Program-made: the position numbers and the translations under genes
Shown: piece by piece, positions 4,228 to 43,442 of the stretch
Layout of the letters: the number at the start of each line of letters is the position of its first letter
Numbering within the stretch: the stretch's first letter is position 1
Assembly: GCA_016841745.1 (NCBI GenBank)
Contig: JAENYO010000004.1
Location: forward strand, 208,026 to 272,025
Source of the DNA: Acetomicrobium hydrogeniformans
GTDB lineage: Bacteria > Synergistota > Synergistia > Synergistales > JAFGMB01
DNA: 64,000 nt
Reading direction: 5' to 3'
Notes under the pieces: model-generated
The model's input: only the letters and a program-made list of their open reading frames with translations
What the model was told of the DNA's origin: nothing
Databases searched by the model: none

Positions 4228-4244
4228 TAGACCAGAAAAGAATT

Positions 4245-35686: not shown

Positions 35687-35840
35687 CCTTTCTGCCAGGA
35701 AGAAATGTTCATATGGAAGAAGGTATTGGCGGAAGTCACAAAAATATGCTGGAAGTCTGTAGGGAATAAATATGCTAATATATTATAGGTTAACACAATG
35801 AAGAGTCTCAATATTAAGTCTTGAACGGGAGGTGTTTTTG

Positions 35841-36851
35841 ATGAAACTGATCAGAACCTGTATTGGATTGATGCTGGTTCTTCTTTGCTGTGTATCTGCA
35901 TTCGCTGCGTCTGGAGAATTGATAACCTTTGCAGATTATGGCTGGGATCTTGTTCGTTTCCATGACAGGGTTGCGGGGTTTATCATAGAAAATGGTTACG
36001 AAAAGAAGGTGGAACAACTCTTTGTTGAGCATATAGCAGGACTTGTAGGACTGGAGAAGGGTGATATAGACATCTACATGGACCTGTGGCCTAACAACTG
36101 TAAAGAATGGTGGGATAAGGCAAGGGACAGTGGAACTGTTGTAAAGCTTTCCGTGAATTATGACGGCGGGAGTCAGGGCTGGTATGTTCCAACTTATGTT
36201 GTCAAAGGCGATCCTGAGCGCGGAATAGAACCAGTGGCTCCAGGCCTGAGATCAGTCCAGGATCTTGCAAAGTACTGGGAAATCTTCCGGGATCCTGAAG
36301 TGAAGAATAAGGGCCGATTCCTTAATGGTCCTCCCAGCTGGATGGCCTACGGGGTTAACATGGCTAAACTACAGGCATATGGCCTGGATAGGTACTTTGT
36401 GTCTTTCCCGACTGGAGGTACTACAGTACTTATAGGTGAAGTTGTGTCCAATTATAAAAAGGGAAAGCCTGTTCTTTTCTATTTCTGGGATCCCACGTGG
36501 CTAATGGGATTGTACGATTTTACACTGCTGGAGGAGCCTCCCTTTGATATGGACCTATGGAACAAGGAAAGAGGTTACGCCTGTGAATGGGTTAAGGGAA
36601 CATCTTTCGTTGTCGCTAACAGCAGCTTTGTTAAAAAGGAACCTGAAGTCTCATCATTTTTGAGTAACTATTCCACTACCCTAGATCAGAACAGGACAGC
36701 CCTTCTGTTCATACATGATAATGATTCCGATGCAGACCTTGCAGCCAGGTGGTTTCTCAAGAATAACAGGGATCACTGGCACAAATGGATCCCGGCCGAA
36801 CATGCTGCCGTGATCGAGAGAGTTGAAGATGCTCTTGAATCAGGTAAGTAG
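35841..36851 (+). CDS. Glycine-betaine/proline-type ABC substrate-binding protein (OpuAC-like)
   Basis: About 336 residues with a signal peptide (CIGLMLVLLCCVSAFA). The fold and motifs match OpuAC/ProX binding proteins: TFADYGWDLVRFHDRVAGF at the start, then GDIDIYMDLWPNN with aromatic residues typical of a quaternary-amine cage, and FWDPTWLMGLYDF. GGGAGGTG precedes ATG 35841; the longer open frame starts at 35832. No ABC permease or ATPase gene is adjacent, so its transporter is encoded elsewhere. It is divergent from proBA, itself osmoprotectant-related. Confidence 0.88.
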   Translation: MKLIRTCIGLMLVLLCCVSAFAASGELITFADYGWDLVRFHDRVAGFIIENGYEKKVEQLFVEHIAGLVGLEKGDIDIYMDLWPNNCKEWWDKARDSGTVVKLSVNYDGGSQGWYVPTYVVKGDPERGIEPVAPGLRSVQDLAKYWEIFRDPEVKNKGRFLNGPPSWMAYGVNMAKLQAYGLDRYFVSFPTGGTTVLIGEVVSNYKKGKPVLFYFWDPTWLMGLYDFTLLEEPPFDMDLWNKERGYACEWVKGTSFVVANSSFVKKEPEVSSFLSNYSTTLDQNRTALLFIHDNDSDADLAARWFLKNNRDHWHKWIPAEHAAVIERVEDALESGK

Positions 36852-36875
36852 AATTTTTAAAAACTGTAAATATTG

Positions 36876-36921
36876 AAGTACAGAGGAGCCGGCAGGATCA
36901 TCTGCCGGCTCCTCTGTACTT
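36876..36921. terminator. Very stable bidirectional hairpin
   Basis: Perfect 20-base inverted repeat (AAGTACAGAGGAGCCGGCAG and its complement) with a 6-nt loop, between the convergent ends of the OpuAC-like gene and the small exported protein. It lacks a long T-run. Confidence 0.75.
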
Positions 36922-36935
36922 ACGGCTAATGAATC

Positions 36936-37271
36936 TTAGTAGGTCAATACCAGCCCGGGGGAAGAGGGATGAAAGTCAAATTCAACCTGTTCAGGTCTGT
37001 AGTTTTTAAAGGGAAAGAAGGTATTGAACAGATTCTGCGTGAAAAGGTTGGTCTGGTCCTGTATGCTGAGGAAAGGTCTCATGGAAACCGTAAAAAAAGA
37101 TTCATCATAATTGCAGAGGGATCTGCTATTGGATTTTCTTGTTTCTGAATTAATCAGGAAGGCAAGTCTTTCGAACTCAAATCTGTCCGGAGGCAGAGTG
37201 TGGACATAAGTATGCGCAACAAGAGGCATTAGAAGTATTAACAAACAAACAATAAAAAGTGTTTTCTTCAT
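36936..37271 (-). CDS. Small exported protein
   Basis: About 111 residues with a signal peptide (TLFIVCLLILLMPLVAHTYV). The rest includes FEFERLAFLINSETRKSN and a Phe-rich stretch, LFTQNLFNTFFPF. No family is recognised. AGGTGGGTG precedes ATG 37271. It is convergent with the OpuAC-like gene. Confidence 0.6.
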   Translation of the reverse strand: MKKTLFIVCLLILLMPLVAHTYVHTLPPDRFEFERLAFLINSETRKSNSRSLCNYDESFFTVSMRPFLSIQDQTNLFTQNLFNTFFPFKNYRPEQVEFDFHPSSPGLVLTY

Positions 37272-37487
37272 GTCACCCACCTCTTTCACGTACAAAGACA
37301 GTTGATCTCAATAGAATTAGCATTAGAAATATCATTTCATTATATTATATCACTACAATGATGAAGCGTGAATGGCCGGGTCTTTCCTTACCGCGATCAG
37401 CAACCTGAGTGTTATGGTATTATTGATTTTATTGGTCTGAAGTGATGAATCAGGAGCTGGTACCTATGGTGAGGATAGTAATGGAAC

Positions 37488-38132
37488 ATGAATGAGTTAC
37501 TGAAGTTTTTCATGATCAGGGATACCTTTATTTTCACCAGGTTAATGGGGCTTTTCTGGCTTTTTGCCGAAGCCTTCTGCCTTGTTTTTGTAAGATGGGG
37601 ATATTATGACCTTATACCTGTTAAAACCCTGAAGAGCCAGAAACCTTTTATCTTTGTCCTTTCATCAGGTTTCCTGTTTCTTATCCTTCTTACATTTAGC
37701 CAGGATCTCATCCTAACGAAGGTATTTCCCGGGTCTGTTGCGTCATCACAATCCCTTCTTTCCTATTACTATTCTTCCCTTTGGCGCCTGTTCTGCACCT
37801 TCTGGGTTCTTATAGAAGGGGCAATTACAATCTATGTTATCAGGATAGAGAGGTTATTCAGAAAGACGAAAACACCCACAAAAATCAGTATGGATCCCTT
37901 GATGGTCTCATTCATAACAGTCTTTTTTCTGTTCTACATATTTTATGAGGTTTCCTTTTTAAGAGTAGTACTGAACGGTGGCATAGGCTGGAAAGCTGTA
38001 ATGAATATTTCACGCTTTTATATAAAGATATGCGGGTTTTTCTGGATTCTTTTTGAATGGATAGTTGCCCTTCTGGGCTGGAGAATATACAGGTTTTTAA
38101 CAAAATGGGGAAGGGGATCTGGTGATGTTTGA
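37488..38132 (+). CDS. Membrane protein with threefold helix repeat
   Basis: 214 residues with about six transmembrane helices and no recognised family. Three helices share a pattern of FW-x-L-x-E followed by a basic residue: RLMGLFWLFAEAF, RLFCTFWVLIEGA and KICGFFWILFEWI. The repeats are spaced across the protein, suggesting internal triplication of a two-helix unit. The next gene overlaps its 3' end by 8 bases, so the two are co-translated. Confidence 0.62.
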   Translation: MNELLKFFMIRDTFIFTRLMGLFWLFAEAFCLVFVRWGYYDLIPVKTLKSQKPFIFVLSSGFLFLILLTFSQDLILTKVFPGSVASSQSLLSYYYSSLWRLFCTFWVLIEGAITIYVIRIERLFRKTKTPTKISMDPLMVSFITVFFLFYIFYEVSFLRVVLNGGIGWKAVMNISRFYIKICGFFWILFEWIVALLGWRIYRFLTKWGRGSGDV

Positions 38133-38481
38133 AAAACTCATTCTCCTTATAGGAACATCTTTTACAAGGGCTGAATATATCAGGCTAACGGTCGTGCAGG
38201 GTTTAATCTGGAGTGTCGCCGACATTTTTCTTGTTTTCTGTCTATTAAAACTGGCGAACCTGATCCGTCGCCGGAATGGCAAAAGAACCACCTTTATACG
38301 GTATCTGTTACTTGTCCTTTCTGCCCTGCTAACTCCTTTGCTGATCCTTTATCCTGAACCGGGAAGTTTCTTCATGCTCGAATCCATAATATTTGGTATC
38401 CAGTATATGATCCTGCTTTATACCCTTATCATGGATAGCCGAATGGTTATGTCAGAACTGAAAAAAAACATATCAGGGTAA
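38125..38481 (+). CDS. Small membrane protein
   Basis: About 119 residues with three to four hydrophobic segments (QGLIWSVADIFLVFCLLKLAN, YLLLVLSALLTPLLILYP, ESIIFGIQYMILLYTLIM) and short charged loops. No family is recognised. Its ATG lies inside the end of the upstream membrane-protein gene, and AAGGGGA precedes it. Its 3' end overlaps the opposite-strand gene by 9 bases. Confidence 0.6.
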   Translation: MFEKLILLIGTSFTRAEYIRLTVVQGLIWSVADIFLVFCLLKLANLIRRRNGKRTTFIRYLLLVLSALLTPLLILYPEPGSFFMLESIIFGIQYMILLYTLIMDSRMVMSELKKNISG

Positions 38482-39090
38482 ATCCCTGTCTTCCCTTGCA
38501 GGAACAAAACCTCTATGGAAGATCTTCCAGTTATCCCCAATGCATGTCATAAGAAGTTCCTCGAGTCTGGAGGCAAGGAATATATCTCCCCAGCCGTTTT
38601 TATTTTTTATTCCCATATTCCTGTAAAAATAATAGAGCATTTTTTCTTTTGAGAGTACAGATCCTGATTCTTCCCTGGAGCTACCTGACAGATACAAGTA
38701 TGTCTGGACCCGTTCCAGATGGCAGGAAGGAGTCCCTTCAATTGAATCCAGGGTGGCCAGCTCTTTATAAATGCCCTCAAGGATTACATCTTTTCTTTCT
38801 CCTGTAACCTCAGGAGGAAACTTCATGATCTCAATTGCAAGAATAGCAAGTGAAAATTCACAGCAGGCCTGTTCGTCATTCAGATCTATCTCCAGGGTTT
38901 TCCTATGGTCTGAAAAACCGAGGTCAGAATAGTTATCCAGCTCTTCAAGCCATCTGCGTATCTCTTTCCAGTTTTCATTAATATTCAAAAATATTTCCTT
39001 TACGAAAAGATATGCTGCATCCTGTTCCGGTATAGGTTCCTTCTTTAGCGTCATGTAAAGACAGGCCTCCACTTCCAGGGTTTTGACCAT
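38473..39090 (-). CDS. Cytoplasmic hypothetical protein
   Basis: 205 residues, mostly alpha-helical and acidic, with no membrane or signal segments. EACLYMTLKKEPIPEQDA near the start and LSKEKMLYYFYRNMGI near the end look like a helical chaperone-type protein, but I cannot assign a family. ATG 39090 has no clear Shine-Dalgarno; an ATG at 39054 follows GGAGG by 11 bases and is the alternative start. It may be the second gene after the 58-codon gene at 39157-39333 on the same strand. Confidence 0.6.
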   Translation of the reverse strand: MVKTLEVEACLYMTLKKEPIPEQDAAYLFVKEIFLNINENWKEIRRWLEELDNYSDLGFSDHRKTLEIDLNDEQACCEFSLAILAIEIMKFPPEVTGERKDVILEGIYKELATLDSIEGTPSCHLERVQTYLYLSGSSREESGSVLSKEKMLYYFYRNMGIKNKNGWGDIFLASRLEELLMTCIGDNWKIFHRGFVPAREDRDLP

Positions 39091-39156
39091 TACTCTGAAG
39101 TTACATTTAATTTAGCATAAAACAGAGAGAAATACATATTCATATTTTTATCCTCT

Positions 39157-39333
39157 TCAATCACATACACTCTCCCGGTAAAGAGGGCTGTCGTCATGCA
39201 TTTTCATACATGTCACAGGATCCCTTCCTGGATCTACCAGTGGTTCATTCCGGAGATAGCAGGTCACATACGGGCCTTCAGGACCGGTTAGAGTTGCATA
39301 GGTCGAGCAGATAGATGTGGAGTGCCCTGTCAT
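39157..39333 (-). CDS. 58-residue small protein with four Cys
   Basis: ATG 39333, stop TGA 39157-39159. The sequence reads MTGHSTSICSTYATLTGPEG, then PYVTCYLRNEPLVDPGRDPV, then TCMKMHDDSPLYRESVCD: four Cys, many turns, and no low complexity. It looks like a folded zinc- or disulfide-binding mini-protein rather than chance. No clear Shine-Dalgarno precedes the ATG, which is the main doubt. It fills what would otherwise be a 430-bp gap and lies 66 bp ahead of the next minus-strand gene. No family is recognised. Confidence 0.5.
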   Translation of the reverse strand: MTGHSTSICSTYATLTGPEGPYVTCYLRNEPLVDPGRDPVTCMKMHDDSPLYRESVCD

Positions 39334-39522
39334 TAAATGATATTATCGGAGCTGACCATTTCCTTACGTCTCTTCCGGTTAGTCATAGTAATTGATCCCG
39401 TCCCGATCTATCCCATCTCCATTTGTATTAAGGGATATCAGTATCGGCATAGATGTGCTTTGCTGTTCCGGATCGGTTCTGATATTCCCTTCTACAGCAA
39501 GGAGAAAGCAGGTGATCAGCAT

Positions 39523-39951
39523 ATGAATAGAACATGGAAAATGCTTTTAGCAGATACAGTTGCCATGATCCTTTTTTCAACTGCCATGTGTATGATGATA
39601 GAGATCTTTGCAGCCGGAATGACAGTTATGCAGTCACTGGTTGCAAGGGTTGCCGCTGTACCTACGAATCTTCTCACAGGAAGGCTGTATGGCTGTTACA
39701 GGGATATGCTTTTCAGAAGGTTTGATCTGAAGGTTGACTCCCTTATCCAGACTGCACTGGGAGATACTGTGGCATTTATTTCTTTTCAACTGCCCCTTTA
39801 TGTGTTAGTCCTTTTACTGGCCCATGCTTCTGTTAACCAGATCCTTATTTCCACTACAATGATGACCCTTATCTTTGCGGTCGCCGGAAGGCCCTACGGC
39901 ATCTTCATGGATTACTGCCGCAAATTTATCCTTGCAGTTTTCCAGGGTTGA
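39523..39951 (+). CDS. alaE: L-alanine exporter AlaE
   Basis: 142 residues with four transmembrane helices, the size of the AlaE family. FSTAMCMMIEIFAAGMTV, RVAAVPTNLLTGRLYG with the conserved Arg-Pro pair, and AVAGRPYGIFMDYCRKF are family hallmarks. AlaE exports L-alanine, which suits an amino-acid fermenter. CAGGTGAT precedes ATG 39523. The frame is open to 39337 but that part has no membrane-protein character. Confidence 0.88.
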   Translation: MNRTWKMLLADTVAMILFSTAMCMMIEIFAAGMTVMQSLVARVAAVPTNLLTGRLYGCYRDMLFRRFDLKVDSLIQTALGDTVAFISFQLPLYVLVLLLAHASVNQILISTTMMTLIFAVAGRPYGIFMDYCRKFILAVFQG

Positions 39952-39991
39952 GCCATTCTGAAAATCTGGAAAGAATGGGGGAAATGTCTTG

Positions 39992-40360
39992 TTACCTGTT
40001 GCTGAAATCCGGGTCATTCAACAGGCATGAGAGAAGAGACAGGACAGATGGGAAGGAGAGGATCAGGTAGTAGGATTCATCGGGGTAATTACCCCAGAGG
40101 TAGGAATTAAAGGCATAAAAGATCACGATCGAAGTTATGGTGACAAGGCCGCCTATTCCTTCATATTTAAGTGCTAAAAGCAGGCCTATGGATACACCTA
40201 CAGGAAAACAGAGAAAAAGTCCAAGATCATCCATTGAAGGGCTTTGAGGAATATGTCCCTTGCTGAAGGAGATCATCGCTATAAATAAAACAGCGAAAAT
40301 GCTGGAGTACTTTGCCAGAAACTTGATAAAGAGTCCAAGAGTCATTTCTTCGTCATCCAT
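39992..40360 (-). CDS. Small membrane protein
   Basis: 122 residues with about four hydrophobic segments (YSSIFAVLFIAMISF, LGLFLCFPVGVSIGLLLAL, GLVTITSIVIFYAF, LILSFPSVLSLLSCLL). No family is recognised. No strong Shine-Dalgarno precedes ATG 40360; an ATG five codons later is possible. It is convergent with alaE. Confidence 0.55.
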   Translation of the reverse strand: MDDEEMTLGLFIKFLAKYSSIFAVLFIAMISFSKGHIPQSPSMDDLGLFLCFPVGVSIGLLLALKYEGIGGLVTITSIVIFYAFNSYLWGNYPDESYYLILSFPSVLSLLSCLLNDPDFSNR

Positions 40361-40567: not shown

Positions 40568-40595
40568 TTGCAATTCATCAAATTAGAAGTATAAT
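40568..40595 (+). promoter_or_regulatory. Promoter for the orphan riboswitch
   Basis: TTGCAA (40568-40573), 16-base spacer, perfect TATAAT (40590-40595). Transcription would begin a few bases before the aptamer, so this riboswitch is likely expressed. Confidence 0.75.
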
Positions 40596-40602
40596 AAGAT
40601 AC

Positions 40603-40753
40603 TCTTTAAAGATAAGAGCGAAGCCGTCAAAAGACGGTGGCGCAAAGCCACGGGACTACAACGGATTTTATATTCAAAGGAGTTTTACAAGAGTAAAATT
40701 TCTTTGGGTTGAATGTAAAACCGACAGTCAGGCCGGCCGGGCTGCCTTTAAAG
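40603..40753 (+). promoter_or_regulatory. Second cyclic di-GMP-I (GEMM-I) riboswitch, no downstream gene
   Basis: Conserved parts are present: GCGAAGCC at the start with G at the ligand-specificity position, a stem closed by AAAA rather than GAAA (CCGTC-AAAA-GACGG), GGCGCAAAGCCACGGGACTA, and the 3' end CAGGCCGGCCGGGCTGCC. CTTTAAA at the start pairs with TTTAAAG at the end to close the outer stem. The variable arm is much longer than usual (about 70 nt, arms CGGATTTTATATTCAAAG and CTTTGGGTTGAATGTAAAA). A terminator follows at once, and the next plus-strand element is only an AEC-transporter remnant, so it may be a relic or a free-standing RNA. Confidence 0.85.
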
Positions 40754-40757
40754 AATA

Positions 40758-40794
40758 ACATCCCTGGGGGTCCAAGCCCAGGGATGTTTTTTTT
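40758..40794 (+). terminator. Terminator of the orphan riboswitch
   Basis: Eleven-base perfect stem ACATCCCTGGG / CCCAGGGATGT with an 8-nt loop and a run of eight T (40787-40794). It begins only about five bases after the aptamer's closing stem. Confidence 0.92.
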
Positions 40795-40800
40795 CAAGCA

Positions 40801-40841
40801 AAACAAGGAGTTAACCTTTTTCTGGCTAACTCCTTGTTTTC
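40801..40841. terminator. Second hairpin behind the orphan riboswitch
   Basis: AAAACAAGGAGTTAACC and GGCTAACTCCTTGTTTT form a stem with one bulge. A and T tracts lie on both sides, so it can terminate the minus-strand SHOCT gene and also back up the riboswitch terminator. Confidence 0.75.
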
Positions 40842-40882: not shown

Positions 40883-41185
40883 TTACTTAAAGGTTTTTTT
40901 CATCTCTTCGAATTGTTCCTTTGTTATTTCACCCTGTGCGTAGCGTTTCTTAAGTATTTCCAGAGGTGTATCAGCCCTTGGTGTTTCGCTCTCCTTGCCG
41001 GAGCGGCCCTTCATGAAAAAATAAAGCAGTATGATCACTAGCAATAAGGGTAGGATCATCATAAAACCACCACCTCCCGACCTCCACATCCAGCGGCACC
41101 ATCCCCATGCCCCTGTCCCGTTATCGGCATATGCGGCCAGGGGATTGACTATCAGCAATGCTGTACTGAATAGAATTGTTTTCAC
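40883..41185 (-). CDS. SHOCT-domain membrane protein
   Basis: About 100 residues. A signal/anchor (TILFSTALLIVNPLAAYA), a Trp/Gly-rich linker, a transmembrane helix (MMILPLLLVIILLYFFM) and a C-terminal SHOCT motif (PLEILKKRYAQGEITKEQF). SHOCT is a short two-helix module common at the C-terminus of small membrane proteins, thought to aid oligomerisation. GTG 41185 is 10 bases after GGAGGA; a GTG at 41194 is too close to that site. Confidence 0.85.
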   Translation of the reverse strand: MKTILFSTALLIVNPLAAYADNGTGAWGWCRWMWRSGGGGFMMILPLLLVIILLYFFMKGRSGKESETPRADTPLEILKKRYAQGEITKEQFEEMKKTFK

Positions 41186-41331
41186 TTTGTCCACATCCTC
41201 CCTTTATCTCTCTACTTGTTAATTATAGTTATTATTGACAAGTAGTAAAGGGCGAAAGTGTTGAACTTCCAGGTTCAACAGGAATGTGATCTCCAGGATT
41301 ATTAATATGAAAAACCCCATGGGGGAAAGGT

Positions 41332-41580
41332 ATGGTGTGGCTTACCAGTTTTTTCCGTTCTATCGGATTACCCATCGTGGCCTGGGGTATGCTTGTGCTA
41401 ATGCCTCTCTCTGCTGACCCCCGTCAATAGTGATAATAGTGGCAGTAATTCCTGTCGCTGCAGCAAACCTCGTTTTAAGCCAGTTTTATGGAAGTAATCG
41501 CAACCTTATCAACGGTTTCTTTCTACTGACCCATCTTATGTACCTGATAACTGTACCGACATTACGGAGCTTTATGTTTT
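41332..41580 (+). pseudogene. C-terminal remnant of an AEC-family (auxin efflux carrier) transporter
   Basis: The frame from 41332 to about 41420 reads LTSFFRSIGLPIVAWGMLVL, and a shifted frame to 41580 reads VIPVAAANLVLSQFYGSN, then LINGFFLLTHLMYLITVPTL. Joined, they match the last two or three helices of AEC transporters. The two parts differ by one base at a C5 run (41418-41422); one extra C would restore the frame. The N-terminal two thirds are absent, so this is a relic and not a sequencing error. It is the first plus-strand gene-like piece after the orphan c-di-GMP riboswitch. Confidence 0.7.
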
Positions 41581-41676: not shown

Positions 41677-42003
41677 TTATTTCAGAAAATCGTTCCTCTG
41701 CGGACTGAAAATATCTATTATTACTGAGCCATCTTCCAGTGCTTCACAATCATGCTCCACGTTGGCAGGAACAAACAGGCTGTCTCCTTCGTGGATCTCC
41801 ATTTCTTCTTCGCCTATCCTGAAACGGAATGACCCCCTTGAAACATAGGCTATCTGCTCGTGGGGGTGATTATGGATTGGTGCCAGCCCTCCTTTCCTGA
41901 ACTCGCCTTCGGTTAACATCATATTCCCACCCCGGGCAAGAACGGTCTGTCTGAAGCCATCCTTATCAATTCTCGGTTTTTGTTCTTCTCTCCTGTAGAA
42001 CAT
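41677..42003 (-). CDS. Small cupin-domain protein
   Basis: About 108 residues. APIHNHPHEQIAYVSRGSF carries the H-x-H-x(3-4)-E motif of cupin module 1 and GDSLFVPANVEHDC the module 2 motif with its His, so the metal site is intact. AGGAGGG precedes ATG 42003. Substrate unknown; it has no same-strand neighbour. Confidence 0.87.
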   Translation of the reverse strand: MFYRREEQKPRIDKDGFRQTVLARGGNMMLTEGEFRKGGLAPIHNHPHEQIAYVSRGSFRFRIGEEEMEIHEGDSLFVPANVEHDCEALEDGSVIIDIFSPQRNDFLK

Positions 42004-42710
42004 GTAAACCCTCCTGTCTGATGTTATAAGGTTATGGTAATACATTGGTAATTTACCCCTTCTTGCTGGATTAGTGCAAGGATGTTCCTTACAGGCACCA
42101 AAGGACAGTGATTTCCAGGAGACAATGGAAGAGGGGCGTGTATTTTCTGGGCTGGAAATACGTCACTATTCCCTGATGGTTTATGTGTAAATCCTGACCG
42201 GGAGCAGTATCTTCGAAGACCTATGATGGAAGGGGTTCAGAGGACTGTGCATTATATAAGGGGGGCACAGTCTAGTGTAATGTTTATTGAGGATCCTGCA
42301 TTCATAATGGCTTGATAAATAAATCTTTAACTCATGATTCTGACCAGTCAACTACCTATTATATTAAACCTTATACTACCTGTGAAAATATTGGAAATAG
42401 CAGAATTTCCCAGTCATTGTTTTCTCGTTCAGGAGAAGACTTCAGGTTTAGCATTCAGGGGAATTATGGGTATAATACAGGAGGTGATAAGGAAAAGATC
42501 GGTGATTATAATTATCGGTTAATGAGGAATGGATGATTTGGACAGATATTTTATGGGGATTCCCACATCTGACACAGGTAACTGTGCCAGATGCAGTTTT
42601 ACTTTTTGACCTGACCATAGATAGCGATAATTCACATTATTGTTCCCCTGCATTTTCCCTTTAAAGAAGGACAGGTCAACTCATTTATGAAAAGCTGGAG
42701 TGTACGAAAA
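42004..42710. other. 707-bp gap without an assignable gene
   Basis: One frame of the plus strand is free of stops for about 67 codons ending near 42316 (it includes NTSLFPDGLCVNPDREQY and RTVHYIRGAQSSVMFIEDPA), but it has no start codon with a Shine-Dalgarno. Later frames up to 42536 look random. A terminator-like hairpin closes the region at 42566. The whole stretch could be a decayed gene; I cannot name it. Confidence 0.35.
42566..42612 (+). terminator. Terminator-like hairpin in the gap
   Basis: CATCTGACACAG / CTGTGCCAGATG with one mismatch and a 4-nt loop (42566-42593), followed by T-rich CAGTTTTACTTTTTG. It may be the relic end of a lost plus-strand gene. Confidence 0.5.
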
Positions 42711-43442
42711 ATGAAAATAATGTCCTCAAAAATATTACTGACTATCCTCTATGATAACATAGCCGCTGAGAATGACCTTCAGGCAGGATGGGGTTTTTCC
42801 TGTCTCGTCGAAGGGGCTGGGGAAACTATCCTCTTCGATACAGGCGCAAGGGGAGAGGTTCTCCTTTCAAACATGAAAAAACTCGGCATTTCGCCTCGTG
42901 ATATAGATATAGTTGTGCTTTCTCATTTTCATGGCGATCATACGGGTGGGATCGATGCCCTTCTGGAGGAAAACCATGAAGTTTCAGTTTACTTCCCTTC
43001 TTCCTTTTCCAGGGGGTTTCTTGAGAGAATTCTAGCCTCTGGAGCAGGAGTAGTGCCAGTTTCATCGTGTCTAAAGATCATGCCCGGCGTTTCCGTTACT
43101 ACAGAAACGGGGGATATGACCAGGGAAATAGCCATGGTAATCGAGACTGATAGAGGGCTCATCGTAATGACCGGTTGTGCTCATCCCGGGGTGAAAAGTA
43201 TTCTCGAAAAGGTTGAATGTATTTCCCCGGATAAACTACTAATGTTAATTGGAGGTCTTCATCTGGAAGCCCGTTCCAGGTTCGAGATAGAACTTCTAGC
43301 TTCTACACTTGCAAAGAAGGGGCTTTCTCATCCTGCTCCATGTCATTGTAGTGGAGATCTGTCAAAAGAAGTATTCAGGAATCAATTTCCCGGTTACATC
43401 GAAACCGGAGTTGGTCGGAAGATCCGCCTTAAAGATATCTAG
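42711..43442 (+). CDS. Metallo-beta-lactamase-fold hydrolase
   Basis: About 243 residues with HFHGDHTGG, the dinuclear metal motif, and GLIVMTGCAHPGVKSI, which places it among the proteins often annotated as dihydropterin aminobenzene-5'-phosphate synthase-like. Two more ligands are probably in IGGLHLEA and the APCHCSGD segment. The real substrate of this branch is not known. GGAGTG precedes ATG 42711; the frame opens at 42687. A flavodoxin gene follows 64 bp later and may be co-transcribed. Confidence 0.85.
   Translation: MKIMSSKILLTILYDNIAAENDLQAGWGFSCLVEGAGETILFDTGARGEVLLSNMKKLGISPRDIDIVVLSHFHGDHTGGIDALLEENHEVSVYFPSSFSRGFLERILASGAGVVPVSSCLKIMPGVSVTTETGDMTREIAMVIETDRGLIVMTGCAHPGVKSILEKVECISPDKLLMLIGGLHLEARSRFEIELLASTLAKKGLSHPAPCHCSGDLSKEVFRNQFPGYIETGVGRKIRLKDI

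Follow-up and report, generated by a model that had tools for sequence, protein, structure and literature searches.

What becomes of a GEMM-I riboswitch aptamer when no gene lies behind it? The window analysed here, a 64,000-nt stretch of Acetomicrobium hydrogeniformans DNA, carries such an aptamer (RF01051) on its plus strand at 40607..40749, scoring 50.9 bits where the gathering threshold is 35 (E = 5e-7 in a search of the whole window); with its P1 stem and long P3 arm, the complete element spans 40602-40754. A sigma-70-type promoter on the same strand (TTGCAA-16-TATAAT, 40568..40595, 10 of 12 matches) lies 7 nt upstream of position 40602, where both the aptamer and the putative transcript begin. 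An intrinsic terminator follows on the plus strand at 40757..40794, with a 12-bp stem (40757-40788) and a T8 tract (40787-40794); its first base is 2 nt past the end of P1, and no antiterminator is predicted. The locus would therefore form a small transcription unit yielding an aptamer RNA of ~193 nt (40602..40794, plus strand), as judged from the promoter and terminator positions. The promoter, the unusually long aptamer arm, and the T8 terminator within five bases of the aptamer were all described in the original prediction and are confirmed here. The small RNA of ~190 nt that it proposed agrees with the layout of the locus, which has a promoter of its own, an uncoupled terminator, and a maintained fold; the transcript itself is a prediction from sequence.

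No intact same-strand gene was found close behind the aptamer among the open reading frames and domains of the window. The neighboring gene, which encodes a 103-aa SHOCT-domain membrane protein (40883..41194, minus strand), is convergent with the aptamer transcript. A second hairpin behind the terminator (40800..40840), also noted earlier, lies ~40 nt past the stop codon of this SHOCT gene and is most simply read as its terminator. The only protein-coding trace on the aptamer's own strand is an 83-residue C-terminal remnant of an AEC transporter (PF03547, Pfam E 0.002), split over two frames at 41332..41579 and beginning ~540 nt downstream of the terminator. It shares 21-32% identity with AEC-like proteins of the same genome and its relatives. 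The aptamer is thus an orphan, as had been claimed.

The fold of this strand is far more stable than that of dinucleotide shuffles (z = -8.1; 0 of 200 shuffles equally stable). A 9-bp P1 (40603..40754, plus strand; strands 40603-40611 and 40746-40754) closes the aptamer and contains three compensatory pairs among the three related copies described below. P2 (40624..40637, plus strand) is capped by an AAAA loop where the consensus has GAAA, and the predicted fold and covariation place the extended P3 arm at about 40662..40723 on the same strand. The gap between the CTA and GCCGGG motifs accordingly measures 77 nt, whereas the other GEMM of the window, at 4236, has 19 nt there. An AGGCC insert relative to the Rfam consensus (40730..40734, plus strand) sits beside the ligand-contact C (40737) and is common to all three related copies. 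Rfam columns 11, 38, and 75 are what we take to be positions 20, 47, and 92 of the Vc2 structure; the counterparts of the contact bases A47 and C92 are kept, whereas the position-20 equivalent (column 11; 40617, plus strand) is A instead of the consensus G. Prefix folds further predict a 5′ hairpin (CUCUU/AAGAG, 40602..40618, plus strand) that would compete with P1 and cover the ligand-contact strand; a counterpart can be folded in all three copies. The element exceeds the family threshold and has the P1/P2/P3 three-way junction in both fold and covariation, but it has no gene behind it to regulate in cis. We classify it at the level of the GEMM-I aptamer and do not call it a working riboswitch.

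The genome carries 19 GEMM-I aptamers above threshold: 18 from the genome search plus the window copy, which was partial in that search and above threshold by cmscan. Seventeen are ordinary, with a short P3 and a same-strand gene behind them, and in most of these either a T-run follows the aptamer by ~36-56 nt or a gene starts at ~+32 to +44. One ordinary copy (C1:18018) has another GEMM as the first element behind it, and another (C14:411753) precedes a GGDEF gene. Eight of the genome's aptamers lie in two dense clusters of four each (G000:C4:227961-237358 and C1:13648-18728), mostly ahead of long secreted-looking proteins. The remaining two of the 19 are the window copy and a paralogue in the same genome (G000:C8:269060-269207, minus strand, L018; hereafter C8), which is 76% identical to it. 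Both share the AAAA P2 loop, a GGGACTA motif, the AGGCC insert, the long P3, and a 9-bp P1 starting just past the promoter. The AAAA loop is not diagnostic, as it also occurs in the ordinary copies C1:13648 and C1:15856.

A covariance model built from the window and C8 copies found a third copy among relatives (G001:C243:641-787, minus strand, L070), in an 86% complete genome (G001) from another genus of the same family. When a model of all three copies (R2) was searched against 188 genomes of the phylum, it returned these three matches at 146-160 bits and the next one at 59 bits; the long-arm subtype therefore comprises three copies in two genomes of one family within this sample. When 85,000 species genomes were scanned with a conservative DNA pattern, 14 long-gap matches emerged in other phyla, none like the long-arm subtype and several resembling tandem aptamers read across; this is not an exhaustive negative, because the pattern would miss even the G001 copy.

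The two other long-arm copies have a clear gene context. C8 lies directly upstream of a threonine ammonia-lyase gene with a LysO-type exporter gene behind it, and the G001 copy lies directly upstream of a homologous threonine ammonia-lyase, so the two are probably orthologues. Both have TATAAT at a spacing from P1 similar to that in the window copy. In both, a U-tract follows P1 immediately (CTTTAAAGG-CTTTTTTT and CTTAAGGGG-TTTTTT), which suggests that P1 itself serves as the terminator stem. The window copy lacks this U-tract and has the separate terminator instead. The predicted upstream pairing of the 5′ arm of that terminator is only 0.02; however, in a shuffled-arm control, the predicted arm pairing of ordinary switches was mostly not above random. 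Given this noise in the predictions for ordinary switches, our claim for the window copy is limited to the absence of visible coupling; the antiterminator contrast, weakened by the control, is kept as the statement that no partner is predicted. Nor are the copies distinguished by a duplex of the aptamer 5′ strand with sequence farther downstream, since it is predicted in all three.

Although the window copy has diverged, its pairing has not decayed with it. Across the three long-arm sequences, eight pairs changed on both sides, and the covariation score exceeded that of all 500 shuffles. The window copy retains 40 of the 43 pairs of a structure derived solely from the two threonine ammonia-lyase copies, whereas neutral substitution to the same distance kept a mean of 30.4 pairs (sd 2.5) and reached 40 in 1 of 2000 simulations. 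Compensatory pairs among its changes occur in both P1 and the arm. By pairwise identities it is the longest branch of the three, and its fold is more stable than those of its sisters. Together, the retained pairs and the compensatory changes indicate that the pairing of the window copy was selected through most of its history, though not necessarily at present.

To what extent the locus is shared can be judged from G001, which has collinear homologues (39-78% identity) of the window genes from 35832 to 40360 and of the gene at 42687-43442. The flanking anchors are a DUF7670 gene on the left (39992..40360, minus strand) and a metallo-beta-lactamase-fold gene on the right (42687..43442, plus strand). 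The interval between them measures 323 bp in G001 and 2,326 bp in the window, and the G001 interval lacks the riboswitch (by the R2 model), the SHOCT gene, any AEC sequence, and the cupin gene (41677..42045, minus strand in the window). The riboswitch segment of ~2.3 kb was either gained in the window genome or lost in G001. A second lineage difference lies beside it, an AlaE-type alanine exporter gene (window 39337-39951) that is absent from the corresponding place in G001. Homologues of the AEC and SHOCT genes do exist in G001 (on C135 and C223, respectively); neither shares synteny with the window locus, and the stretches examined around them gave no GEMM. Elsewhere in G001, an AEC transporter gene is closely followed by a molybdenum cofactor riboswitch (L120:4835-4954).

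The paralogy, the lost coupling, the empty G001 site, and the retained pairing point to an aptamer RNA that was duplicated and detached while its structure was maintained. Our preferred reading, to which we assign a probability of about 0.6, is that the window copy is a paralogous, detached copy of a family-specific long-arm GEMM-I that no longer switches, ends constitutively, and gives an RNA of ~193 nt. In the ancestral form, a threonine ammonia-lyase was probably regulated in cis: ligand binding would close P1, the U-tract right behind P1 would then terminate transcription, and without ligand the 5′ hairpin would take up the P1 strand and let the polymerase pass. The P1-plus-U-tract form is probably ancestral, as suggested by its presence in two copies that are orthologous to each other. 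In the window copy, both this U-tract and the gene coupling would have been lost, leaving a constitutive stop at the separate terminator. Its RNA may now be either a recently orphaned duplicate or a free-acting ligand-binding RNA.

The original prediction had offered the simpler possibility that decay of the transporter left the riboswitch without its gene, in which case the window copy regulated the AEC gene until recently and its RNA has not yet had time to decay. The same-strand position of the remnant ~540 nt downstream, the length of the window branch, and the placement of C8 ahead of genes for amino acid breakdown and export agree with such a history. However, a strong terminator with no predicted antiterminator would have blocked the AEC gene, the fold is fully kept, the sister copies precede a different gene, and in no relative examined is a long-arm riboswitch paired with an AEC gene. 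The original prediction suggested checking whether relatives keep an intact transporter at this place; G001, the one relative with the syntenic block, has neither transporter nor riboswitch there. We therefore consider a simple relic of AEC regulation somewhat doubtful. Tentatively, the RNA might instead be a free-standing functional small RNA that binds a cyclic dinucleotide and serves as a buffer for the messenger or works in trans, as the merRNA of Bdellovibrio exemplifies (PMC3627812). Its complete unit with promoter and terminator, and pairing that is kept across 24% divergence from the paralogue, would suit this role; the deviating position 20 and other core bases, and the lack of an orthologue at the corresponding place in the one comparable genome, argue against it. 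An evolutionary course in which a cis riboswitch was duplicated, shed both gene and switching terminator, and came under selection as a free-standing small RNA that binds a cyclic dinucleotide seems rather unlikely.

The identity of the ligand calls for some caution. The original assignment to the GEMM-I class stands, but the c-di-GMP label that came with it is uncertain due to the specificity base: position 20 is A in the window and G001 copies, and this base steers the preference between c-di-GMP and c-AMP-GMP, with A favoring the latter (PMC9481103). The window aptamer could thus be of the 3′,3′-cGAMP (GEMM-Ib) type, which would be compatible with either a relic or a free RNA. Against this, C8 has G at position 20, and the position is described as influencing selectivity without acting as a strict filter (PMC9262584). 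The Hypr GGDEF signature has Ser in place of the canonical Asp (PMC6456294), and Asp occupies that position in each of the genome's 10 GGDEF domains and in all 8 that are readable in G001; no SMODS cyclase was found either, so that of the two GEMM-Ib hallmarks, the A is present, whereas a cGAMP synthase (Hypr GGDEF or DncV-like) was not found. Consequently, c-di-GMP is kept as the likelier ligand with lower confidence, and we consider cGAMP improbable. Predicted binding should also be viewed with caution in light of the AGGCC insert, which is conserved next to the contact C. Two ordinary GEMM-I aptamers (G000:C4:234426 and C4:227961) also have A at position 20.

Compared with known RF01051 c-di-GMP riboswitches, the window copy shares the P1/P2/P3 aptamer and the A47- and C92-equivalent contacts but differs in A20, the AAAA loop, the AGGCC insert, the very long P3, and its gene-less state. 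It has the same specificity base as the GEMM-Ib cGAMP riboswitches of Geobacter (PMC6456294, PMC8835794), yet no Hypr GGDEF turned up in its genome and it does not precede cytochrome or pilus genes. The GEMM-I transcription switches Cd1 and pilM (PMC9262584) also place an intrinsic terminator after the aptamer; they use separate switching strands. In the C8 and G001 copies, by contrast, P1 seems to double as the stem of the terminator, and no coupling is visible in the window copy. A gene-less GEMM-I RNA is already known from Bdellovibrio, whose merRNA is a massively expressed non-coding RNA of 445 nt (PMC3627812). Like merRNA, the window copy would be a gene-less aptamer RNA with its own promoter and terminator, followed by no conserved open reading frame; it differs in being predicted from the DNA alone and in having a cis-regulatory-looking paralogue in the same genome. 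What is found here is an ordinary-class aptamer in an unusual detached state.

The presence of attached and detached copies in one genome makes the question of whether a riboswitch can become a free small RNA testable. If the path from duplication to small RNA is true, the evolutionary route from riboswitch to small RNA would be visible in this organism. For the family, the long-arm subtype, in which P1 runs straight into the U-tract, would amount to a very compact transcription switch that would tie cyclic-dinucleotide sensing to threonine breakdown.
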